DNA from: a virus
DNA: 30,279 nucleotides
Strand: one strand, 5' to 3'
Virus record (IMG/VR): IMGVR_UViG_3300006921_000083
Location: 1 to 30,279 of that record
Shown here piece after piece: positions 1,931 through 24,912 of this stretch (positions are counted from its first letter, which is position 1; each line of letters begins with the position of its first letter). Made by a program: the position numbers and the translations under genes. The notes beneath the pieces were generated by a model. The model saw only the letters and a program-made list of their open reading frames with translations, was not told where the DNA came from and did not search any database.

Positions 1931-2923
1931 TTACTCGTCAGCGACAGCGAGGATAAATCCTGCTTCGGGACGGTAAGTCTGGATACCGTACAGAGTATCC
2001 GCAGTGTACAGAGTAGAGAGGTACTCTTGCTTGTACTGAGTCTGCGAACGTACAGCCATTTGCTCTGCCATTACGAGAGCGTCTTTGTGGAAGAACAAGC
2101 AACCACGGGTATCAAGAGATGAAGCACCGTTCTCGCCACCTGTCTCAACTATGGGACAGTTGCTAGAAACGTATACGTCAACACCGTACAAGTTACCGAT
2201 GAGTCCTGACTCAACACCACGACCACCAACAAAGTCGGAAGAAACGTAGCGATCAATTCCCATGATTGACTTACGTGACGCAGGAGGGATTACCAAACAA
2301 CGGTTGTCCATAGGTACGTCAGCATCATCCATCAGCTTGATAGCTTCGCGGAATCCGAGGTCAGTGAAGTTGTCACCAGTAGCTACAGTATCAACAGCAT
2401 ACGCAGACAAGCCAGTAGCGGCATTGAAGTAGTAGCTGTTGCTGTTTACCCAGTTTGCGCCAGTAGCGGCGGGTGACTGAGTACGAGTTCCGTTACCGAA
2501 ACCAGTAGCAGCGTTGATAAGGTCAGTGTCAACCTTCAGAGCCAGTTGGTAACCAGCGTCTTCAGTGTAAAACTGTCGCAGAGAGGACAGAGCCTGTACT
2601 TCTACGATGTCTTCGATCAGACGCGAGTACTCAAAGTGACGATCTACAGTGATCTGCAGTTCAGTCTCAAGGTTGGCCTGAATCGTAACTGCAGTAGCTT
2701 CTGCCTTAGCAGATGCAGAGCCACGAATAGGCTTAGGTACGTGAATAACGTCACCCTTCTTACCAGACATCGTAAGACGCTTGACAAGGGGAGCCATTTT
2801 CAGGTTCTTTTGATACGCGGCGATTACTTCGTCGCTCCAGATTTCTGGGATAAAAGTCCCAGCAGCAGTCTTATCTACTACAGCATTAGCTGTGAAATAA
2901 GTGCCAGAGGTTTCATTAGCCAT
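1931..2923 (-). CDS. Major capsid protein
   Basis: A 330-aa protein builds the icosahedral head shell. The N-terminal segment (FIPEIWSDEVIAAYQKNL, about residues 24-41), the VIHVPKP stretch, the DRHFEYSRLIEDI region and the RCLVIPP segment fit the HK97-fold capsid proteins of T7-like and marine podoviruses. It starts at ATG 2923 with AGGAGAAAT just upstream. It sits directly after the acidic scaffold gene and before a strong terminator, the usual arrangement for the most abundant virion protein. Position and size support the call as much as the residues do. Confidence 0.9.
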   Translation of the reverse strand: MANETSGTYFTANAVVDKTAAGTFIPEIWSDEVIAAYQKNLKMAPLVKRLTMSGKKGDVIHVPKPIRGSASAKAEATAVTIQANLETELQITVDRHFEYSRLIEDIVEVQALSSLRQFYTEDAGYQLALKVDTDLINAATGFGNGTRTQSPAATGANWVNSNSYYFNAATGLSAYAVDTVATGDNFTDLGFREAIKLMDDADVPMDNRCLVIPPASRKSIMGIDRYVSSDFVGGRGVESGLIGNLYGVDVYVSSNCPIVETGGENGASSLDTRGCLFFHKDALVMAEQMAVRSQTQYKQEYLSTLYTADTLYGIQTYRPEAGFILAVADE

Positions 2924-4867: not shown

Positions 4868-5148
4868 TTAACTTTGTTCGCCCAGTAAGCCGCAGAACAC
4901 TTTCCTTTAGCTATGTTCTTAGCGTGTCTAGCCTTAAAGGATTTACGTCTAGCTTTTTCTTTGTCAGTCTTAGGATTTTTACCTGCACCGCTAACTCCTT
5001 GTTGTCCAAACCTAATTGTTTTAACTGAGCCGTCAGCACACTTAGCAACAACTACGTGAGACTTTGTTGCATGATTAGGAGTCCTCTTCGGCTTGTTGTA
5101 CCCGCTTACTCCTGCTCTTGCTAGTCTTGGGTCTTTCTCCTTTGGCAT
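4861..5148 (-). CDS. Conserved basic phage protein, unknown function
   Basis: A 95-aa, strongly basic protein. The motifs DPRLARAGVSGYNKPKRTP, TIRFGQQGVSGAG, and the C-terminal SFKARHAKNIAKG and AAYWANKVKW belong to a family I recognise from many marine phages, where it sits close to portal and capsid genes. The start ATG (5148) overlaps the portal stop (TGATG), which implies coupled translation. Its charge and position are compatible with a DNA-contacting virion or packaging accessory protein, but nothing here proves that. Confidence 0.85.
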   Translation of the reverse strand: MPKEKDPRLARAGVSGYNKPKRTPNHATKSHVVVAKCADGSVKTIRFGQQGVSGAGKNPKTDKEKARRKSFKARHAKNIAKGKCSAAYWANKVKW

Positions 5149-5296
5149 CAGATGACTCCTTCTGGCGCTCGTCCGACATTTGGCCCTCTAGGTCCACGAG
5201 TTTGCTCTCCAGCGCGTCCAGCCTGCTGAATTGGGTTTGGAACAGGCTGTTGATCTGCTCCAGGAGTTTGTTCATTTCGGTTTGTGTCATTAACAC
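5075..5296 (-). CDS. Probable overlapping coiled-coil protein
   Basis: A 73-aa frame from GTG 5296 overlaps the last 149 nt of the portal gene and the first 74 nt of the next gene, in a frame different from both. An AGGAG site (5306-5310) lies 9 nt before the GTG; the in-frame ATG at 5290 is an alternative. Residues 8-40 are a heptad-like helix (LLEQINSLF, RLDALESKLVDLEGQ) and the tail is Lys/Ser-rich. The well-placed ribosome site and coherent coiled coil argue for a real gene, while heavy overlap argues for caution. Confidence 0.5.
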   Translation of the reverse strand: MLMTQTEMNKLLEQINSLFQTQFSRLDALESKLVDLEGQMSDERQKESSDAKGERPKTSKSRSKRVQQAEEDS

Positions 5297-7208
5297 TGGG
5301 TGTTGCTCCTTTGTCGTTTAAGGCTTTCTCTTTTAAGGCTACTTCAGCAATCTTGAGACGCTTCTCAAACTCTTTGTCATCTGTGTCACCAGCCTGAAGA
5401 TTACGTGTGATGGCACTAATCTTGTCAATCTCAAGTTCTTGAGGTGCAAGCTGAGTTTCAATGGCGTACTTACCTGCTCGTGCCTGAGATTCTGCCGCTT
5501 GTCCTTGCAAGGCCGCAGTTTGACTCTGCTGGAACTCAAGCTGTGCCTGCTGTGCCATCTGAGCCATCTGCTGTGCCTGAGGATCTGGCTGTTGAGCCTG
5601 CTGCATAGACGCAATGAGTTCCTCGCGGTTGCTGAGGTTCATGTTGTCTATAATGCTCTGGATCAACACAGGGTAGATTGGGGAATCTTGTTTCATGGTC
5701 TGCAGAAGCTGCACAAGCTGAGTAACCTCGTATTCCCTAGCGATGATACCCAGAGTGGACGTAGCGTTAAACTTGTAGTCAGCTACGGGATAAGACTCAG
5801 GATCAAACTGCATATACCTGTGAGCCGCCTTGGTTACAAACGGAAGCAGGAATGACTGCTGGAAGTTTATAAGAGTACGCTTGTGACGCTTAATAATAGC
5901 ACCAAGAGACATACTGATCCCAGCAGCAGTAGCTTCACCATTGACCTGTCCAGCGATCCCTGCCGAGTCCACGGCACCTGTCGCCTGTTGTACCATTTGC
6001 TGAAGGCTTGCAGCTTGAGCAAAAGTAATTTGCCCCACTTGCCCAAAGTTAAATGGCTGTAGTACTTCACGCGGATCCCCGTTAGTCAAAATCATCTTGC
6101 CCGGACGGACTTCAGGTTTAGCGCCTCTAGGAAGCCGTGTAGCGTCGATAGCGAGCATTGGGTGAATCGTCAGACTCAGGGCATCAATACGTGCGCGTAG
6201 TTCTGTATCTAGTGCCTTCTGGCTGTTGTAGCCCTTCTCACAGACACCACGGCCCCAGAAGCGCCCCGGAACAACGTCCCAAGGAAACGCTACTACAGGA
6301 CGATCCTGCATCATGTAGGGGTTAGCTTCAGCCTTGAGCAGTGTGCCACCGTTAGCTATAACCACGACAGCCTCAACATACATAGAGTCAGACTCAACTT
6401 CTACGCCTTCAGCCTCAAGGAGTGCGCGAGGCACAAGCCCGTAGTACTTGGTCAGCCTAACCTTGTCATCGTTGTAGAGCGTGAGGTCTTGATCTGGCTC
6501 TAGGTCTGTATCAGGGGCCGCTGTATCAATGTACGCTTCGTTGTAAACGCCCTGTTCCTGCAGGAGTTCTACAGAGTGCTTTGACACAAACTCGTCAATA
6601 GCCACACCCATAGCGTCTTCTACAGACGTAGCTACAGGGTCAATCAGGAAGTTCTGGGGCAAGACAGGCTTGAGTTTGACTACGATCCTGTCAGTAATGT
6701 TGACACCTACAGCAGTTAGCTCACCGCCCATAACAGGCTGGGTAGCTGGAGCCATCTCCTTGATCTCCTCAAGGACAATCTCTCCTACACCCGTACCAAA
6801 GACAGCAGAGTTAATCAAGCACTCAGCAACAGCCTTACGTACCTTGGTGTTCTCAAAGTCTTCCGTCAGCTTCTTTCGGAGATACTGAATGTCTTGGTTG
6901 TCTTTGTCATTAACATCGTCAGCAATATCAAACCACTTTCCACGACCAAATGTAGCTTCTTCTAGTTCCGCTACGTTAGACTCTACAGCCTGCTGAAGCG
7001 CAGGAGAGATAATTCGAGAACGCTCTGATAGTCTTTCCGAGTCAGCCGGGTCCCATTGACCTCTCCATAGCCTATAGTATTCCTCAAACCTTGCTTCGTA
7101 GTTTGACTCATAGTTGTCTCTCCAGTTTTCACATTTAGTCATTACCCAATCTTCAAGAGATTCCTCCATCATCAGCGGGTCTAGACTTAAGATTTCTGCG
7201 TCTGCCAT
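5148..7208 (-). CDS. Portal (head-tail connector) protein
   Basis: This 686-aa protein would form the dodecameric portal through which DNA enters the head. The N-terminus (FEEYYRLWRGQW, about residues 40-52), the WDVVPGRFWGRGVCEKGYNSQ section and QQATGAVDSAGIAGQ are typical of large podoviral portals. It is longer than T7 gp8 (536 aa). The extra length is mostly C-terminal: a Gln/Ala-rich helical stretch around residues 535-580 and a Pro/Gly-rich tail. It starts at ATG 7208 with AAGGAA 8 nt upstream. It follows large terminase with one micro-gene between, and its stop overlaps the next start. Confidence 0.9.
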   Translation of the reverse strand: MADAEILSLDPLMMEESLEDWVMTKCENWRDNYESNYEARFEEYYRLWRGQWDPADSERLSERSRIISPALQQAVESNVAELEEATFGRGKWFDIADDVNDKDNQDIQYLRKKLTEDFENTKVRKAVAECLINSAVFGTGVGEIVLEEIKEMAPATQPVMGGELTAVGVNITDRIVVKLKPVLPQNFLIDPVATSVEDAMGVAIDEFVSKHSVELLQEQGVYNEAYIDTAAPDTDLEPDQDLTLYNDDKVRLTKYYGLVPRALLEAEGVEVESDSMYVEAVVVIANGGTLLKAEANPYMMQDRPVVAFPWDVVPGRFWGRGVCEKGYNSQKALDTELRARIDALSLTIHPMLAIDATRLPRGAKPEVRPGKMILTNGDPREVLQPFNFGQVGQITFAQAASLQQMVQQATGAVDSAGIAGQVNGEATAAGISMSLGAIIKRHKRTLINFQQSFLLPFVTKAAHRYMQFDPESYPVADYKFNATSTLGIIAREYEVTQLVQLLQTMKQDSPIYPVLIQSIIDNMNLSNREELIASMQQAQQPDPQAQQMAQMAQQAQLEFQQSQTAALQGQAAESQARAGKYAIETQLAPQELEIDKISAITRNLQAGDTDDKEFEKRLKIAEVALKEKALNDKGATPSVNDTNRNEQTPGADQQPVPNPIQQAGRAGEQTRGPRGPNVGRAPEGVI

Positions 7209-7218
7209 AGTATTTTCC

Positions 7219-7320
7219 TTAAAGTAGAGCTATGCTGTAGCCTATAGTAAAAATTACTACGGCAGATATAGCGTAAATTCCGTATGTATTTAATCTTCTA
7301 AAAACACGCTTGTTGTTCAT
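7219..7320 (-). CDS. 33-aa single-span membrane peptide
   Basis: ATG 7320 overlaps the large-terminase stop (TAATG) and opens a 33-aa frame. A basic N-terminus (NNKRVFRR) is followed by about 20 hydrophobic residues (YGIYAISAVVIFTIGYSIAL). That is one transmembrane helix with positive residues at the cytoplasmic end. The tight coupling to the terminase gene supports expression. A pinholin or holin-like job is possible, but a single span this short could equally modify the host membrane; I do not assign it. Confidence 0.6.
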   Translation of the reverse strand: MNNKRVFRRLNTYGIYAISAVVIFTIGYSIALL

Positions 7321-8570
7321 TAGTACCCTGCCACAATGTCTAGTATTTCGTGTTCGTCAATTTCGTAATCGTAGCTGTACGCAACCTTTGCTAACTGATC
7401 TATGTATGCCAGTGCGTCAACCAAGTCATCGTGGGTCAGTGGATCTGGAAACTGAAACAGTTGGTCTAAGAATCTGTTGTTCCACTCACCCTTGCTTAAA
7501 TCTATGTAACCGTTCTCAAAGCGGCCCTGTAGCGCCCACATAACCCTGTCAGTTTTCTTCTTGTTACCGTGGGTCAACTCTTCGACACGAAAGAACGTAC
7601 CGTGGCGTTTCATTAGGTCTGTCAGAGGACTCATTACTGCCTGCTTTGCTATTCCTCTTTCAATACCAACGCTAATGGGTCTGTAATCTCTAACGGCTTG
7701 AAATATCTTGGCGGCAGTCTCGTCAAGGCTCCACCGCCCATATATAATGTTATCAACGTACCAACCATCAGGACTAACCTTAACAACAGCGATTGCAGTT
7801 TCATCTAGTTTTGTATTCTTCGTCCGTTTCTTGTTGACTTCCTCAAAACCTGCGAGGTCAACTGCGATGTAGTAGTCACCTACCTCTGGCTCTTCTCCAA
7901 AGTGTACCCAATCTTCCTTAAACATTTCGGAACCTCTGGCCTCAAATGATGCCATAAATTCCTGACGAAACGCATAAGATGACATAGACTTTTTAGCCAT
8001 GTCAATTTCTTCCGAGTCCAGTATTGGGTTGTCATACGATGTAAAGTGCCATCCCTTGTACGTTGGGTCATCCCCTAGTTCTGCGTACTTGTACAGTTCA
8101 TAAAAGTGGTTCCTGCCCATAGGCGTACCTATGAACATCGCTGAACCCTTTTGGTCAGCCAGTGCTGGACGGAGGATTTGCTCCCATACGTCAGGCTTCA
8201 TGTCTGCGTACTCGTCCATCACAAGAAACTTCAAGGAAACACCACGCATTGTCTCTGGCCTATCGGCTCCTTTGAGACTAATGGTGGCCCCGTTGACCAG
8301 CTTGATCTGCAGGTTGTTAATGTGACTACCCGCAATCACAGGGTTTCCTAGCTCCATCAGGGTTTGCCACATAATATCACGGGCCTGACCCTGAGTGGGC
8401 GCAACGTAAAAAACTTGCCCTTTGTCTGTCTGTAGGGCGTTAATAATTAACATCCATGCAGCTAGTCGGGACTTCCCTGTCCGTCTTCCAGCAGCTACTA
8501 CCTTGAATCGTGTAGAATCAGAGTAGACTTCTTGCTGCCAAGGCAACAACTGAACATTAAGATCAGTCAC
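7320..8570 (-). CDS. terL: Terminase large subunit
   Basis: The 416-aa packaging motor combines an ATPase with a headful nuclease. Walker A is AAGRRTGKS (residues 26-34), Walker B is FLVMDE with D119/E120, and a coupling-type IGTPMGRNHFYELY follows. The C-terminal RNase H-like nuclease shows IAVDLAG, VGIERG and the late HDDLVDALAY, which supply the acidic metal ligands. The start is GTG 8570, close after the preceding stop. Small terminase lies four genes upstream, an unusual separation, with lysis-like and envelope genes between. Confidence 0.95.
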   Translation of the reverse strand: MTDLNVQLLPWQQEVYSDSTRFKVVAAGRRTGKSRLAAWMLIINALQTDKGQVFYVAPTQGQARDIMWQTLMELGNPVIAGSHINNLQIKLVNGATISLKGADRPETMRGVSLKFLVMDEYADMKPDVWEQILRPALADQKGSAMFIGTPMGRNHFYELYKYAELGDDPTYKGWHFTSYDNPILDSEEIDMAKKSMSSYAFRQEFMASFEARGSEMFKEDWVHFGEEPEVGDYYIAVDLAGFEEVNKKRTKNTKLDETAIAVVKVSPDGWYVDNIIYGRWSLDETAAKIFQAVRDYRPISVGIERGIAKQAVMSPLTDLMKRHGTFFRVEELTHGNKKKTDRVMWALQGRFENGYIDLSKGEWNNRFLDQLFQFPDPLTHDDLVDALAYIDQLAKVAYSYDYEIDEHEILDIVAGY

Positions 8571-8573
8571 TAC

Positions 8574-9926
8574 TTAGCTACTAGTCACCGTCATTGACTT
8601 ATGCTCTACAGCGTAACCGTAGCTCATTGGACCGTTGACGATACGTGTGCCAGCAAAGCCGAGAATAGGTAATCCCTTAATCTCCACGTTGTTATCGTCC
8701 TTTGGTAACTTCTGACTAGTATTCAGAGTAGCTGATCCTGCCTGAAACGAGTAAGAAATGTCTTTGTTGGTACTAGTAATTAAGGCGCTCTTGCTGTTAA
8801 AAGAGAGTACATTCACGGCACCACACACAGTGTCTTCTACACCGTTAGGCGCGTCAGGAACAAACTGAGAGGTGGCTGAAGTGACGTTAGACTCGCGATC
8901 ACGCCTGATTAGAGACATAGGCTCACAAGCACCCCCGTCAGCCTTAGTGCTGTCGTAAGCTACCGTGAACGGCGCAGAAGCAGTGTCCTTAGTAAAGTAC
9001 TTTTTAGTTGGAAACGTAACTACCCAATCAGTTTCAGCAGCGAGTACGTCCTCTGTCTGAACTTCGTTGTTAATGCTCTGTGACGCTAGGAGCGCACTCA
9101 TGGCTAACACAGACCCGTTTGTTTTGCTAGTGTAGTTTACAGTTACTCCGTTTACTACTGCCTTGGATACACCGTCATCTAAGTCAGGAGCCAAGTTGCC
9201 CGGACTCTTGTGGTAGTTAGTCCCAGACTTAGCCCACCCGTCGATAGCTGTTACAGGCATAGACATGGAGTAAGCCAGAGATGGAACAATGAACAAGGAA
9301 GACCCTGATAGCCCACCAGTGGGTCCAGTTACGTTAGTAGATGTGTCGGAGGACCAAGCACCAGTACCTGTAGTCCACAGGTCTATCAGTGAGTCACAGT
9401 CGGCTACGTCAACGGTATCGCCTACCACGCCCATCTCAATAACTTCTAGGTGACCCATGAGTGTCCGTGAGATGTCTCCAGACTCTTCGCTCTCAAACAG
9501 GTACGGAACAAACGGCTGTGACCTGAGTACAGCCCCAGACGCCAGAAGTTCCTGTGTACCGTCATAAGGAGGGTTAGATGTCCCTAGCTGTGGTACTGTA
9601 CAGGTGCTGTCGTTTGTTATGACTGAAGTCCCACCAAAATCGTTAGACGCCAGCGCAACGGGAAAGATATCGTGAGGCCCTAGGTACACGTTGAACTCTA
9701 GAACTACTGCTGAGTTCTGAGCCTCCATGAACCGGACCTTCACCGCCTTCTGATCGTCTGTGTTGTTGGTTACGTGCATATACGTATTTGCGTTGTTCTC
9801 AGTGGTATACAAAGGGTACAAGAGAACTTGGCCCGTAGGGGATACTGTCTGGTCTGCTAAAGCCACAGAAGAGGCCAGAGTTGCAGATGCTACAGCGAGG
9901 GCTAAAGTATTAGGTTTACTTAACAT
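8574..9926 (-). CDS. Exported envelope-type protein, probable host-derived moron
   Basis: This 450-aa protein has a clear Sec signal peptide: K4, a hydrophobic core at residues 7-23, and an ALA cleavage site after residue 24. The mature N-terminus reads VSPTGQVLLYPLYTT, with TNNTDDQKAVKVRFMEAQNS and FNVYLGPHDIFP following. I associate this pattern with uncharacterised periplasmic or surface proteins of Gammaproteobacteria. Four cysteines occur in the mature part (STCTV, VADCDS, GGACE, TVCGA) and could form two disulfides. A GGAG site lies 8 nt before the ATG, which follows the glutaredoxin stop directly. It is odd in a late operon between lysis-like genes and terminase. It could remodel the host surface or block superinfection (inference). 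Confidence 0.72.
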   Translation of the reverse strand: MLSKPNTLALAVASATLASSVALADQTVSPTGQVLLYPLYTTENNANTYMHVTNNTDDQKAVKVRFMEAQNSAVVLEFNVYLGPHDIFPVALASNDFGGTSVITNDSTCTVPQLGTSNPPYDGTQELLASGAVLRSQPFVPYLFESEESGDISRTLMGHLEVIEMGVVGDTVDVADCDSLIDLWTTGTGAWSSDTSTNVTGPTGGLSGSSLFIVPSLAYSMSMPVTAIDGWAKSGTNYHKSPGNLAPDLDDGVSKAVVNGVTVNYTSKTNGSVLAMSALLASQSINNEVQTEDVLAAETDWVVTFPTKKYFTKDTASAPFTVAYDSTKADGGACEPMSLIRRDRESNVTSATSQFVPDAPNGVEDTVCGAVNVLSFNSKSALITSTNKDISYSFQAGSATLNTSQKLPKDDNNVEIKGLPILGFAGTRIVNGPMSYGYAVEHKSMTVTSS

Positions 9927-10163
9927 TTAGTTGATCTCCGAAACATTCATAGTGGATTCTACAGCGTTGTTGAACTCTTGTAAACCACCAAAGTGGTAAA
10001 ATATCTGGGGTATGGACCGTTTACCTGTCAAGGCTTCTACCATGTCCCATCCTGGTTGCCCCGGAGGAATGTGTACATAATTGTACTCCAATCCGCTTTC
10101 TTGGGCCGACTTCTTTGCTTTTTTACAGGCGGGACACCAATCTGCCCCTACGATAGTAATCAT
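9927..10163 (-). CDS. Glutaredoxin-like thiol-disulfide oxidoreductase
   Basis: A 78-aa thioredoxin-fold protein. The redox site WCPAC (C10, C13) follows the first beta strand (MITIVGAD), and the cis-proline appears in RSIPQIFYHFGG. Length and layout fit a minimal glutaredoxin; the CPAC site lies between glutaredoxin CPYC and thioredoxin CGPC. There is no signal peptide, so it acts in the cytoplasm. Possible jobs are recycling the class II ribonucleotide reductase encoded at 23047-24912 or thiol control during lysis. It stands directly before the exported four-cysteine protein, but the compartments differ. Confidence 0.85.
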   Translation of the reverse strand: MITIVGADWCPACKKAKKSAQESGLEYNYVHIPPGQPGWDMVEALTGKRSIPQIFYHFGGLQEFNNAVESTMNVSEIN

Positions 10164-10167
10164 AACA

Positions 10168-10509
10168 TCAGTACGTCCATATAACAGGAACAGACCCCCG
10201 TGTATCTACGTGAATAAAGTCACCAGCGACCCCTATGCCAGTAAAGCCGTGTTCTAAGGCTGCTTTTATTAGCGAATACCGATGGGCAGAGTTAGTTATC
10301 TTTATGTCTGCCGCTATGCCTTGCGCGTGAGTCCCCGGTATCTCTTTTATAGCCTCTAACGGGTGGCTAGGGCTTCTGTAGCCGCTAGTGATAACAAAAG
10401 GAAAACCACAGTACTCCCTGAGTGAGTCAAGTTTGCTCAAGAACTCAGGTTCCATGTGGTTTTCGCCTGTTTCTTGACAGTTAAACTCTTTGTAGGTAAA
10501 GTATTTCAC
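10168..10509 (-). CDS. M15-family peptidase, endolysin candidate
   Basis: A 113-aa protein of the peptidase M15 (D-Ala-D-Ala carboxypeptidase-like) fold. ITSGYRSPSHP (residues 40-50) leads to the zinc motif HAQGIAAD (H61, D68) and to DFIHVD (H100), the third zinc ligand. Single-domain M15 enzymes of this size act as phage endolysins that cut peptidoglycan cross-links. There is no signal peptide or cell-wall binding domain, so it would need a holin, which I cannot identify securely. It starts with GTG overlapping the previous stop (GTGA). Confidence 0.85.
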   Translation of the reverse strand: MKYFTYKEFNCQETGENHMEPEFLSKLDSLREYCGFPFVITSGYRSPSHPLEAIKEIPGTHAQGIAADIKITNSAHRYSLIKAALEHGFTGIGVAGDFIHVDTRGSVPVIWTY

Positions 10510-10784
10510 TGATTAGCTTCTTCAACCGTCTTCTTAGCACGGGCTACGTCATTTACGTAGGCTCTCTCACAGTGATTCTCGTCAAAAACGTAGTCAACAG
10601 CGGCATTGAGCCACTTCCAAGCCTTAGACTTGTCTTTTAGCCTGTGGCTGCGTCCTGATACAGACTCGTTAGCGTTGTCACCAAAGAGTACAGCCACGTT
10701 TAGTAGCTGACTAGTGGCATCTCCTACCCTGATTACGTATTCTAGGGTTTCATCTAATACATCGTCTAGTTTATTCTGTGACAT
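10506..10784 (-). CDS. Conserved phage protein near lysis genes, unknown function
   Basis: I start this 92-aa protein at ATG 10784, which has GGAGAGG upstream and overlaps the end of small terminase. The longer in-frame extension lies wholly in the terminase gene. Residues about 30-45 read LFGDNANESVSGRSHRL and the C-terminal part has VDYVFDENHCERAY. The pair 'N-E-S-[VI]-S-x-R' and 'HC-x2-[AS]-Y' marks a family of small proteins common in tailed phages, frequently beside lysis genes. Its function is not known to me. There is no membrane span, so it is not a holin itself. Confidence 0.7.
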   Translation of the reverse strand: MSQNKLDDVLDETLEYVIRVGDATSQLLNVAVLFGDNANESVSGRSHRLKDKSKAWKWLNAAVDYVFDENHCERAYVNDVARAKKTVEEANQ

Positions 10785-11211
10785 CCACTGCCTCTCCTTC
10801 AATTTCCTCTCCCGATTCAAAGCCATCAGCAATAGTTGTACCTCCGACCCCAGTGATGTTAATCTGTATTGCACTTCGTCCCGCATCTTTGATTACATCC
10901 TTCTCAAAAGCACCAACAGGTAGTATACGATCCATTATTAGCTTCCATGCTGCTGCCTGATTCTTGTGGTCATCGTTAGTTGCAGCGTCAAAGATAGTCT
11001 GTAACACTAGTTCTGACTTAGGACTAGCTAACATCCTAGCCTTGTACTCGTTAATTATAGAAGCATCGCCCTTTGGCCTGCCTACTTTGCCTCTAGAACC
11101 TGAGGTCTTAGCTTTTACTTCAGACTTCTTAGGTCTGCCTCTCTTTCGCTTACGTAAATTAACTTCTTTACGTTCAGCAGCCTGTTGTGCTAGGGTGTCA
11201 TCCTGTGACAT
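10771..11211 (-). CDS. terS: Terminase small subunit, probable
   Basis: This 146-aa protein would recognise the phage genome and hand it to the large terminase. The N-terminal third holds two AT-hook-like cores: RGRPKK (residues 24-29) and VGRPKG (43-48). The middle (EYKARMLASPKSELVLQTIFDAA, then AAAWKLIMDRILP) is helical, as in small-terminase oligomerisation cores. The C-terminus is acidic. It is the first gene behind the leftward promoter at 11354-11382. The call relies on position, size and partial resemblance to podoviral small terminases; another DNA-binding protein is possible. Confidence 0.65.
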   Translation of the reverse strand: MSQDDTLAQQAAERKEVNLRKRKRGRPKKSEVKAKTSGSRGKVGRPKGDASIINEYKARMLASPKSELVLQTIFDAATNDDHKNQAAAWKLIMDRILPVGAFEKDVIKDAGRSAIQINITGVGGTTIADGFESGEEIEGEAVDVTE

Positions 11212-23046: not shown

Positions 23047-24912
23047 ATGGACGCATATCAACAATACATACACAAGTCTAGATACGCACGTTACCTACCA
23101 GAAGAGAAGCGGCGCGAGACTTGGGAGGAGACAGTAGGACGTTACGTAGGCTTTTGGGGAGACTCACTACCGGAGAGTGACCGTAAGGAAGTGTATGAGT
23201 CTATCCACAAGCTAGACGTAATGCCCAGCATGAGGGCGTTGATGACAGCAGGCGAGGCGCTGGATCGTGACAATGTGGCTGGGTTTAACTGTAGCTACCT
23301 ACCTATAGACCACCCTAAAGCCTTTGACGAACTGATGTACGTCCTGCTATGCGGAACAGGCGTAGGCTATTCTGTGGAGCGTCAATACATACAGAAACTA
23401 CCGGAAGTTGCGGAGGAGTTCCATGACACAGACACAGTTATTAATGTGGCAGATTCAAAGATTGGATGGGCGAAATCGTTTAGGGAGTTGGTATCGCTGT
23501 TGTATTCAGGTCAAGTTCCTCAATGGGACGTTAGCCGAGTACGACCTGCGGGTTCCGCGCTCAAAGTTTTTGGAGGTAGAGCAAGCGGTCCAGAACCTCT
23601 GCTCGACTTATTCCGATTCACTGTGGCACTTTTTCGGGAAGCGGCTGGAAGAAAACTTAGCTCCATTGAATGTCACGATCTCTGTTGCAAAATTGCTCAA
23701 ATCGTCGTTGTCGGAGGAGTCAGAAGATCAGCCCTCATCAGTCTCAGCAACCTCACAGATGACAGACTGCGACGATGTAAGCACGGTCAGTGGTGGGTAG
23801 ATGAGCCTCAGCGTGGTCTGGCGAACAACTCAGCCTGTTACACAGAGAAGCCTGACTTTGAGGCGTTCCTAAACGAGTGGACAAGTCTATATGAATCAAG
23901 ATCTGGTGAACGAGGTGTCTTTAGCCGAGTGGCAAGTCAAAAGCAAGCTGAAAAAAACGGCAGACGAGATGCTACCTTTGATTTTGGAACTAATCCGTGT
24001 AGCGAAATCATCCTCAGACCCTATCAATTCTGCAATTTATCAGAGGTTGTTGTCAGGCATGACGATACACTCGCAAGCCTCAAACGGAAAGTACGTGTTG
24101 CGACAATACTTGGAACTCTACAAGCTACCCTGACAGACTTCCGATACCTGCGTAACATCTGGAAGACTAACACGCAAGAAGAAGCACTGCTGGGCGTATC
24201 CCTGACGGGCATCATGGATCACCCTCTGCTCTCTGGGCGTCAAGACAAGAGCAAGCTAAAGAGATGGTTAATGGAGATGCGTAATGAGGCTATCGTCACT
24301 AATGAGCAGTGGGCTAAAAAGCTGGGTATTAATCCGTCTACAGCAATTACTGCAGTTAAGCCTAGTGGCACTGTTAGTCAGTTGGTCGATAGTGCTAGTG
24401 GCATCCATCCTAGGTATAGCAGTCAATATATTCGGCGGGTTCGGGCAGACTCTCGTGACCCACTTTGCTCTGTCCTAGAGGCCGCTGGTGTCCCTGTGGA
24501 GGACGATCTAATGTCCCCTAGTACACGGGTATTCAGCTTCCCTATAGCGGCTCCTGAGGGCGCTGTGACAGCCTCAGAGATGGGTGCTATGGAGCAGCTA
24601 GAGCTATGGGAGATATATCAGGACTACTGGTGTGAGCATAAGCCGTCTATGACCTGCTACTACCGTGATGATGAGTTCCTGGAGGTAGGACAGTGGCTGT
24701 ACAACAAGTTTGACAAGGTATCTGGAATTTCCTTCTTGCCCTACTCAGACCACACGTACCAGCAGGCCCCTTATGAACCTGTGGATAAGGCTACCTTGAA
24801 AGAACTTAAGAAGGGGTTCCCTACAGAGATATCGTGGGATATTGAAGAGGCCAGCGATATGACTGAAGGGTCACAACAACTGGCCTGCACAGGTAACAAC
24901 TGCGAGTTATGA
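23047..24912 (+). CDS. nrdJ: Class II (B12-dependent) ribonucleoside-triphosphate reductase
   Basis: The 621-aa monomeric enzyme reduces ribonucleotides to deoxyribonucleotides using adenosylcobalamin. The radical site NPCSEI has the thiyl Cys318; C329 lies 11 residues later, as C408 and C419 do in the Lactobacillus leichmannii enzyme. C82 (AGFNCSY) is the redox partner of C329, and the C-terminal pair C614-x4-C619 (LACTGNNCEL) regenerates it. FGGRASGPEPL and KPSGTVSQLVDSASGIHPR are also typical. It is shorter than the roughly 739-aa bacterial enzyme. It uses no oxygen-dependent radical subunit and depends on host B12 supply. The last 6 nt overlap a convergent gene. Confidence 0.94.
   Translation: MDAYQQYIHKSRYARYLPEEKRRETWEETVGRYVGFWGDSLPESDRKEVYESIHKLDVMPSMRALMTAGEALDRDNVAGFNCSYLPIDHPKAFDELMYVLLCGTGVGYSVERQYIQKLPEVAEEFHDTDTVINVADSKIGWAKSFRELVSLLYSGQVPQWDVSRVRPAGSALKVFGGRASGPEPLLDLFRFTVALFREAAGRKLSSIECHDLCCKIAQIVVVGGVRRSALISLSNLTDDRLRRCKHGQWWVDEPQRGLANNSACYTEKPDFEAFLNEWTSLYESRSGERGVFSRVASQKQAEKNGRRDATFDFGTNPCSEIILRPYQFCNLSEVVVRHDDTLASLKRKVRVATILGTLQATLTDFRYLRNIWKTNTQEEALLGVSLTGIMDHPLLSGRQDKSKLKRWLMEMRNEAIVTNEQWAKKLGINPSTAITAVKPSGTVSQLVDSASGIHPRYSSQYIRRVRADSRDPLCSVLEAAGVPVEDDLMSPSTRVFSFPIAAPEGAVTASEMGAMEQLELWEIYQDYWCEHKPSMTCYYRDDEFLEVGQWLYNKFDKVSGISFLPYSDHTYQQAPYEPVDKATLKELKKGFPTEISWDIEEASDMTEGSQQLACTGNNCEL

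Follow-up and report, generated by a model that had tools for sequence, protein, structure and literature searches.

S-layer proteins of the NpdA family are the closest described relatives of the gene considered here. NpdA has been shown experimentally to be the S-layer protein of Delftia and Paracidovorax (Delftia acidovorans Cs1-4 and Paracidovorax citrulli AAC00-1, the latter protein under accession WP_011797163; PMC3110197, PMC10765051); this outer coat of the cells is paracrystalline, and deletion of npdA abolishes it (PMC10765051). In Beta- and Gammaproteobacteria the orthologues adjoin gsp clusters, the taxa including Halieaceae, Luminiphilus, Thiothrix caldifontis, T. eikelboomii and Thiofilum flexile, and Comamonas odontotermitis is also listed as npdA-bearing (PMC10765051). 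Cryo-EM revealed an S-layer in most of 16 further npdA-bearing cultures, with at least two Halieaceae-type strains among those examined (the set includes Congregibacter litoralis KT71 and Haliea salexigens), and layers of this type have been reported to protect against Bdellovibrio (PMC10765051). Slr4 of Pseudoalteromonas, described as another S-layer protein, likewise comes from a marine gammaproteobacterium and is tied to a type II secretion cluster (PMC7821379).

S-layers are also used by phages as points of attachment. The SlpA S-layer of C. difficile is a phage receptor (PMC10100898), as is the S-layer of Caulobacter according to a citation within PMC7821379. From the phage side, gene_23 of the OM43 phage Melnitz carries a putative S-layer-type annotation and has been proposed to guard against superinfection (PMC9004378). 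Here we describe a gene, referred to as exp, in a stretch of DNA of 30,279 nucleotides (the window), an IMG/VR record of an uncultivated, probably marine virus of bacteria.

A phage gene related to NpdA-type S-layer proteins

The open reading frame of exp occupies exactly positions 8574-9926 on the minus strand and encodes 450 amino acids; the plus strand across the same interval is full of stop codons. The earlier note on this DNA had given the position and length of the gene but not its strand, and its further observations of a clean Sec signal peptide cleaved after ALA24, of four cysteines, and of placement between lysis-type genes and the large terminase gene (terL) are all borne out. The features of the window that bear on exp are as follows.

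1931..2923, minus strand: major capsid protein (PF19821, phrog_267)
5148..7208, minus strand: portal protein, SU10/P22-like (PF23899, phrog_1216)
7320..8570, minus strand: large terminase subunit, terL (PF03237, PF17289, phrog_2)
8574..9926, minus strand: exp, NpdA-type S-layer protein homologue, almost certainly (open reading frame, homologues, HHalign, phylogeny, dN/dS)
8823..8825, minus strand: Cys368, co-occurring with Cys334 in all 31 aligned sequences
8925..8927, minus strand: Cys334, predicted partner Cys368, the two present or absent jointly in all 31 sequences
9396..9398, minus strand: Cys177, conserved without exception in the 31 aligned proteins from phages and bacteria
9600..9602, minus strand: Cys109, predicted partner Cys177, both invariant in the same 31 proteins
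9855..9926, minus strand: Sec signal peptide, residues 1-24, predicted cleavage after ALA24 (sequence reading; motif position conserved in homologues)
9927..10163, minus strand: glutaredoxin/thioredoxin-like protein, directly upstream of exp (PF00462, E 2.6e-7; phrog_22)
10168..10509, minus strand: M15 peptidase, endolysin (PF08291, phrog_894)
10506..10886, minus strand: 126-aa protein overlapping the next open reading frame (phrog_3342)
10771..11211, minus strand: putative small terminase subunit (terS), 146 aa, with an AT-hook-like motif (PF02178 below cutoff; assigned by position only)

The gene stands within a strand of lysis, packaging and head genes, in the order M15 endolysin, glutaredoxin-like gene, exp, terL, portal and capsid. 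The TAA of the glutaredoxin-like gene is followed immediately by the ATG of exp, which has GGAG 9 nt upstream of it, and a gap of 3 nt separates the exp stop from terL; scans for promoters and terminators gave results at chance level. Elsewhere in the window, an open-ended reading frame at 3-1868 on the minus strand contains many copies of a repeat like ELNILDGVTSTTA and probably encodes a tail-fibre protein that is truncated where the contig stops, a 252-aa plus-strand reading frame at 1198-1956 being its antisense shadow. A class II (B12-dependent) ribonucleotide reductase-like gene lies at 23047-24912 on the plus strand, which also carries genes for a family A DNA polymerase and a primase-helicase.

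The N-terminus of the protein reads MLSKPNTLALAVASATLASSVALA followed by DQ; its n-region is basic, its core is hydrophobic and residues 22-24 fit AxA. An A-x-A-like motif before a conserved Q is found again in nearly all homologues. The predicted mature protein has 426 amino acids, a mass of about 45.1 kDa and a pI of 4.4. Because the cysteines at 109 and 177 are invariant and those at 334 and 368 are present or absent jointly, two disulfides with the pairing 109-177 and 334-368 are likely. The glutaredoxin-like protein was considered as serving these disulfides and dropped: no signal peptide was seen in it, and although its gene lies upstream of exp in 14 of 14 loci with exp, it also occurs in 22 of the 72 loci that lack exp; common descent can account for the co-occurrence.

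Nothing in Pfam, in PHROGs, among the PDB sequences or in NCBIfam (best 0.39) matched the protein, and exp together with two relatives matched none of 50,697 catalogued phage records. An AlphaFold2 model is confident and mostly beta (pLDDT 87, pTM 0.88); against the PDB and BFVD it found no convincing match, the query-normalised TM-scores all being below 0.2 among the matches listed, and the fold therefore adds no function. Scans of viral contigs recovered homologues of 48-98% identity in about 20 contigs. Given these end-to-end homologues, the confident fold and a dN/dS of 0.10-0.17 between phage copies where computable (0.03-0.06 for terL), exp is more than a chance reading frame, and it is under purifying selection.

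A profile of the phage copies, run against bacterial genomes, found 25 loci, nearly all in Gamma- and Betaproteobacteria and including Halieaceae, Luminiphilus, Pseudomonas, Lysobacter, Marinicella, Thiothrix, Thiofilum and Zoogloea; one of them, L102 from a Halieaceae MAG, proved to be a contig of phage DNA that carries genes for tail-fibre assembly and a phage helicase. Matches occurred in 64 of 120 genomes from the Halieaceae group, with a set of distant paralogues accounting for many of these, and in 10 of 200 genomes from the order of the Zoogloea genome. The Halieaceae locus runs gspE-F-G-H-I-J-K, an L-like PilN-domain protein, M, D, a small protein, the exp homologue and a PpiC-type isomerase, and, as far as the neighbourhood was covered, an identical order was recognised by eye in Thiothrix, where Pfam also confirmed the secretin and the isomerase, in Zoogloea and in one betaproteobacterium. 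In Comamonas odontotermitis the gsp cluster has gspD, then a 'cell surface protein', then a peptidylprolyl isomerase. This protein, which stands at the npdA locus and with which the direct NpdA comparison was made, is matched by the window protein in BLASTP (E 8e-21) and by the phage profile in HHalign (probability 99.5%).

Taken together, these comparisons make exp almost certainly a homologue of the NpdA-type S-layer proteins. Like that family it shows end-to-end homology to the bacterial copies, a signal peptide, the size of a predicted secreted single-gene product of about 450-600 aa, and no Pfam or other known domain. It differs in being borne by phages, in a late operon among lysis and packaging genes rather than beside gsp genes as in bacteria, and in falling in a clade separate from all chromosomal copies; with no gsp gene next to it, it is named a phage-borne homologue and not an npdA orthologue. 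The earlier note had suspected chromosomal surface relatives in Gammaproteobacteria, an exported envelope protein and no kinship with virion proteins, and each of these has held up, the first through the NpdA-family loci found by the profile, the second through the signal peptide motif and the S-layer homology, and the third through the lack of matches among phage records and virion-protein families. Two more distant sets of relatives were also seen. The S-layer family has a group of distant paralogues in Halieaceae genomes (L151-L164), whose 13 rows fall into a single clade of the tree. The plasmid pNitYY0826_PLS of the epsilonproteobacterium Nitratiruptor (L204) carries a weak relative (5926-7239, E 9e-5) with a prepilin-type gene and a gene for a peptidylprolyl isomerase close by, and this may be an npdA-like locus on a plasmid.

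Origin and genomic settings of the phage copies

The phage copies form one clade, with support of 100 in a tree of 70 rows and 100/100 in a more careful tree of 39 rows. This clade is sister to marine Halieaceae copies (L103-L105; support 99 and 100/100) and is nested in the Halieaceae S-layer group; an AU test, from which one Halieaceae row falling elsewhere (L146) was left out, rejected the alternative that the Halieaceae rows hold together without the phages (p=1.4e-6). Because of this nesting and this rejection, the phylogeny points to a single capture by phages from a Halieaceae-like marine source, after which the gene spread to several unrelated phage backbones. Halieaceae as the present host is supported, not proven, on the basis of the gene phylogeny and of L102, the single phage contig that had been grouped into a Halieaceae MAG; a TerL search of 140 Halieaceae genomes gave one partial match of 44% only.

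The settings of the gene are diverse. In L095 exp adjoins a phrog_38-type terminase, in L098 and L100 it is found in phages with another TerL and, by eye, a DUF5681-like TerS, and L101 is a further exp phage with its own TerL and portal. It adjoins a Sak/primase-helicase replication region in L096, follows tail-fibre assembly genes in L102 and L194, and adjoins internal virion and tail-fibre proteins in L195. A lipoprotein gene of 53-68 aa starts at or near the exp stop in L005-L007, L096, L098, L100-L102, L194 and L195, and in L202 a small lipoprotein gene follows an end fragment of exp. No such gene was seen after the bacterial NpdA-family copies. Genes of this kind that start at or overlap the exp stop include L005:4054-4212, L100:7293-7469, L102:2295-2498, L194:7340-7510 and L195:7340-7513, and the mature part of the product is about 35-45 aa. 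A weak match to Cor-type proteins (E 0.03) is no evidence that these lipoproteins belong to that type. Some backbones also carry, downstream of exp, a small single-transmembrane protein with an FPND motif; confinement of this protein to exp modules was considered but rejected, as L186, L187, L189 and L190 carry the gene without exp. Neither the small lipoprotein nor the single-transmembrane protein is present in the window or in L004 and L008, which are the nearest relatives of the window.

In phages related to that of the window, exp appears as an optional insert in the interval between the M15/glutaredoxin genes and terL, being found in 14 of 86 loci that have terL and its upstream context, a set enriched by loci fetched via exp and with a few contigs counted twice. 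In other relatives the same interval holds a lipoprotein of 248-284 aa, a shorter protein with a hydrophobic start, or nothing; the lipoprotein is found at L186:1875-2729 and L187:9207-10001 and also in L012, L013, L035, L054, L059 and L080. At L047:1484-2828, and in L185, which is the same contig, exp is split into two overlapping reading frames of 322 and 135 aa. A near-identical copy in L097 is intact, so that this is either a broken copy or an assembly error.

These loci also bear on the proposal in the earlier note that exp, by separating the small from the large terminase gene, had been inserted into an ancestral order. Insertion is upheld in the sense of an optional insert between the M15/glutaredoxin genes and terL. 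An ancestral adjacency of terS and terL is not, because the two genes, of which terS is a putative assignment, are still separated by lysis genes in the relatives without exp: in the 63 of these where both could be placed, they lie 346-2053 nt apart.

A proposed role at the host surface

As the relatives of exp are NpdA-family S-layer proteins, alteration of the host surface late in infection is the natural reading, and the export signal and surface-protein homology are consistent with a factor for superinfection exclusion or lytic conversion. The earlier note had named superinfection exclusion, receptor masking and envelope weakening, any of which such an alteration might bring about. On the reading proposed here, the phage S-layer protein would leave the cytoplasm by Sec late in infection, fold and form its two disulfides in the periplasm, and cross the outer membrane through the host's own S-layer type II system, there to insert into the host lattice or compete with it. 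The altered surface would then block adsorption of competing phages to a cell that is still productive and, after lysis, adsorption of progeny to envelope debris. The late-operon position fits the sparing of progeny from debris better than it fits early exclusion. We weigh late export into the host S-layer, with remodelling of the surface to these two ends, evenly between right and wrong, and regard the mechanism overall as moderately supported; it is based on the genes and sequences of the phage clade, from which we infer lattice entry and type II secretion of the phage protein.

Lytic conversion has a precedent in T5 Llp and the Cor-type lipoproteins, which are phage envelope proteins that block receptors and spare progeny. 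These are small receptor-binding lipoproteins, whereas exp is a homologue of a surface-lattice subunit and, in an analogous conversion, would act by exchanging one coat subunit for another. Besides family membership, origin and selection, the following count for surface conversion: the precedents for S-layers as phage receptors, the small lipoprotein gene that follows exp in several backbones, and the divergence of exp at synonymous sites, which between the window and L008 (dS 1.75) greatly exceeds that of terL (0.41) and suggests allele exchange, as expected for a gene resembling a surface antigen. Melnitz gene_23 (PMC9004378) is similar in being a marine phage gene of S-layer type with a proposed guard function; however, it is known by annotation only and comes from a T4-like methylophage, while exp matched no catalogued phage record, and the two are likened by description.

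The main rival, conceivable though in our estimation unlikely, is that exp is instead an aid to lysis, a divergent subunit made in bulk that poisons the S-layer lattice or clogs the type II system and so lets virions leave; endolysin, holin and spanin would be the other three layers of such a lysis cassette. Its place in the lysis-terL interval close to the endolysin gene, the 248-284 aa lipoprotein of related phages in the same slot, and the small lipoprotein and/or single-transmembrane protein after exp in other backbones would all accord with such a function. Against it, exp aligns end to end with the host subunits and is under purifying selection, with no domain visibly lost as might be the case in a poison, most relatives do without it, and its upstream neighbours in several siphophage-like contigs are tail-fibre genes and not an endolysin gene. 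A full-length, conserved subunit might also provide a replacement coat, supplied by the phage during host shut-off and protecting the infected cell against lytic enzymes or predators such as Bdellovibrio, from which NpdA-type layers are reported to protect (PMC10765051); the lytic period in question comes late and is brief, so that the gain from such a coat would be small, and we consider this improbable.

Distinctly improbable, too, is a role on the particle or, after release, as a decoy or a means of getting through the next host's S-layer. The late strand and the neighbouring terL here, and the tail-fibre genes adjoining exp in L096, L102, L194 and L195, might suggest one, but a Sec signal peptide takes the protein out of the cytoplasm, where particles are assembled, neither a PHROG or Pfam match nor a convincing one in BFVD links it to a virion family or viral fold, and it is optional in close relatives that keep all their head genes. 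That exp is a neutral passenger of illegitimate recombination is scarcely credible: its patchy presence and the one broken copy (L047/L185) would fit, but a dN/dS of 0.10-0.17 over long divergence already contradicts this, as do the tight translational spacing and the maintenance of one clade across several phage backbones.

Surface conversion, the reading that we prefer, may extend beyond the window. Lytic phages of S-layered marine Gammaproteobacteria might carry a host-derived S-layer subunit gene and exchange it among unrelated lineages, often with a small lipoprotein of its own, so as to rebuild the host coat late in infection; such a widespread strategy of S-layer conversion we put forward as possible, somewhat short of probable. 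In the literature searched, which took in few of the subscription journals, no report was found of an NpdA-type gene in phages, nor of a genuine S-layer subunit that unrelated phages had taken from a host and kept among their late genes; the nearest precedent is a proposal made from annotation only. The gene ties uncultivated phages to Halieaceae (OM60/NOR5) and is a ready marker for finding more of them. In many bacteria the S-layer is the outermost surface, to which phages bind as a receptor, and exp provides an example, open to experiment, of a phage that would change its host's protein lattice.
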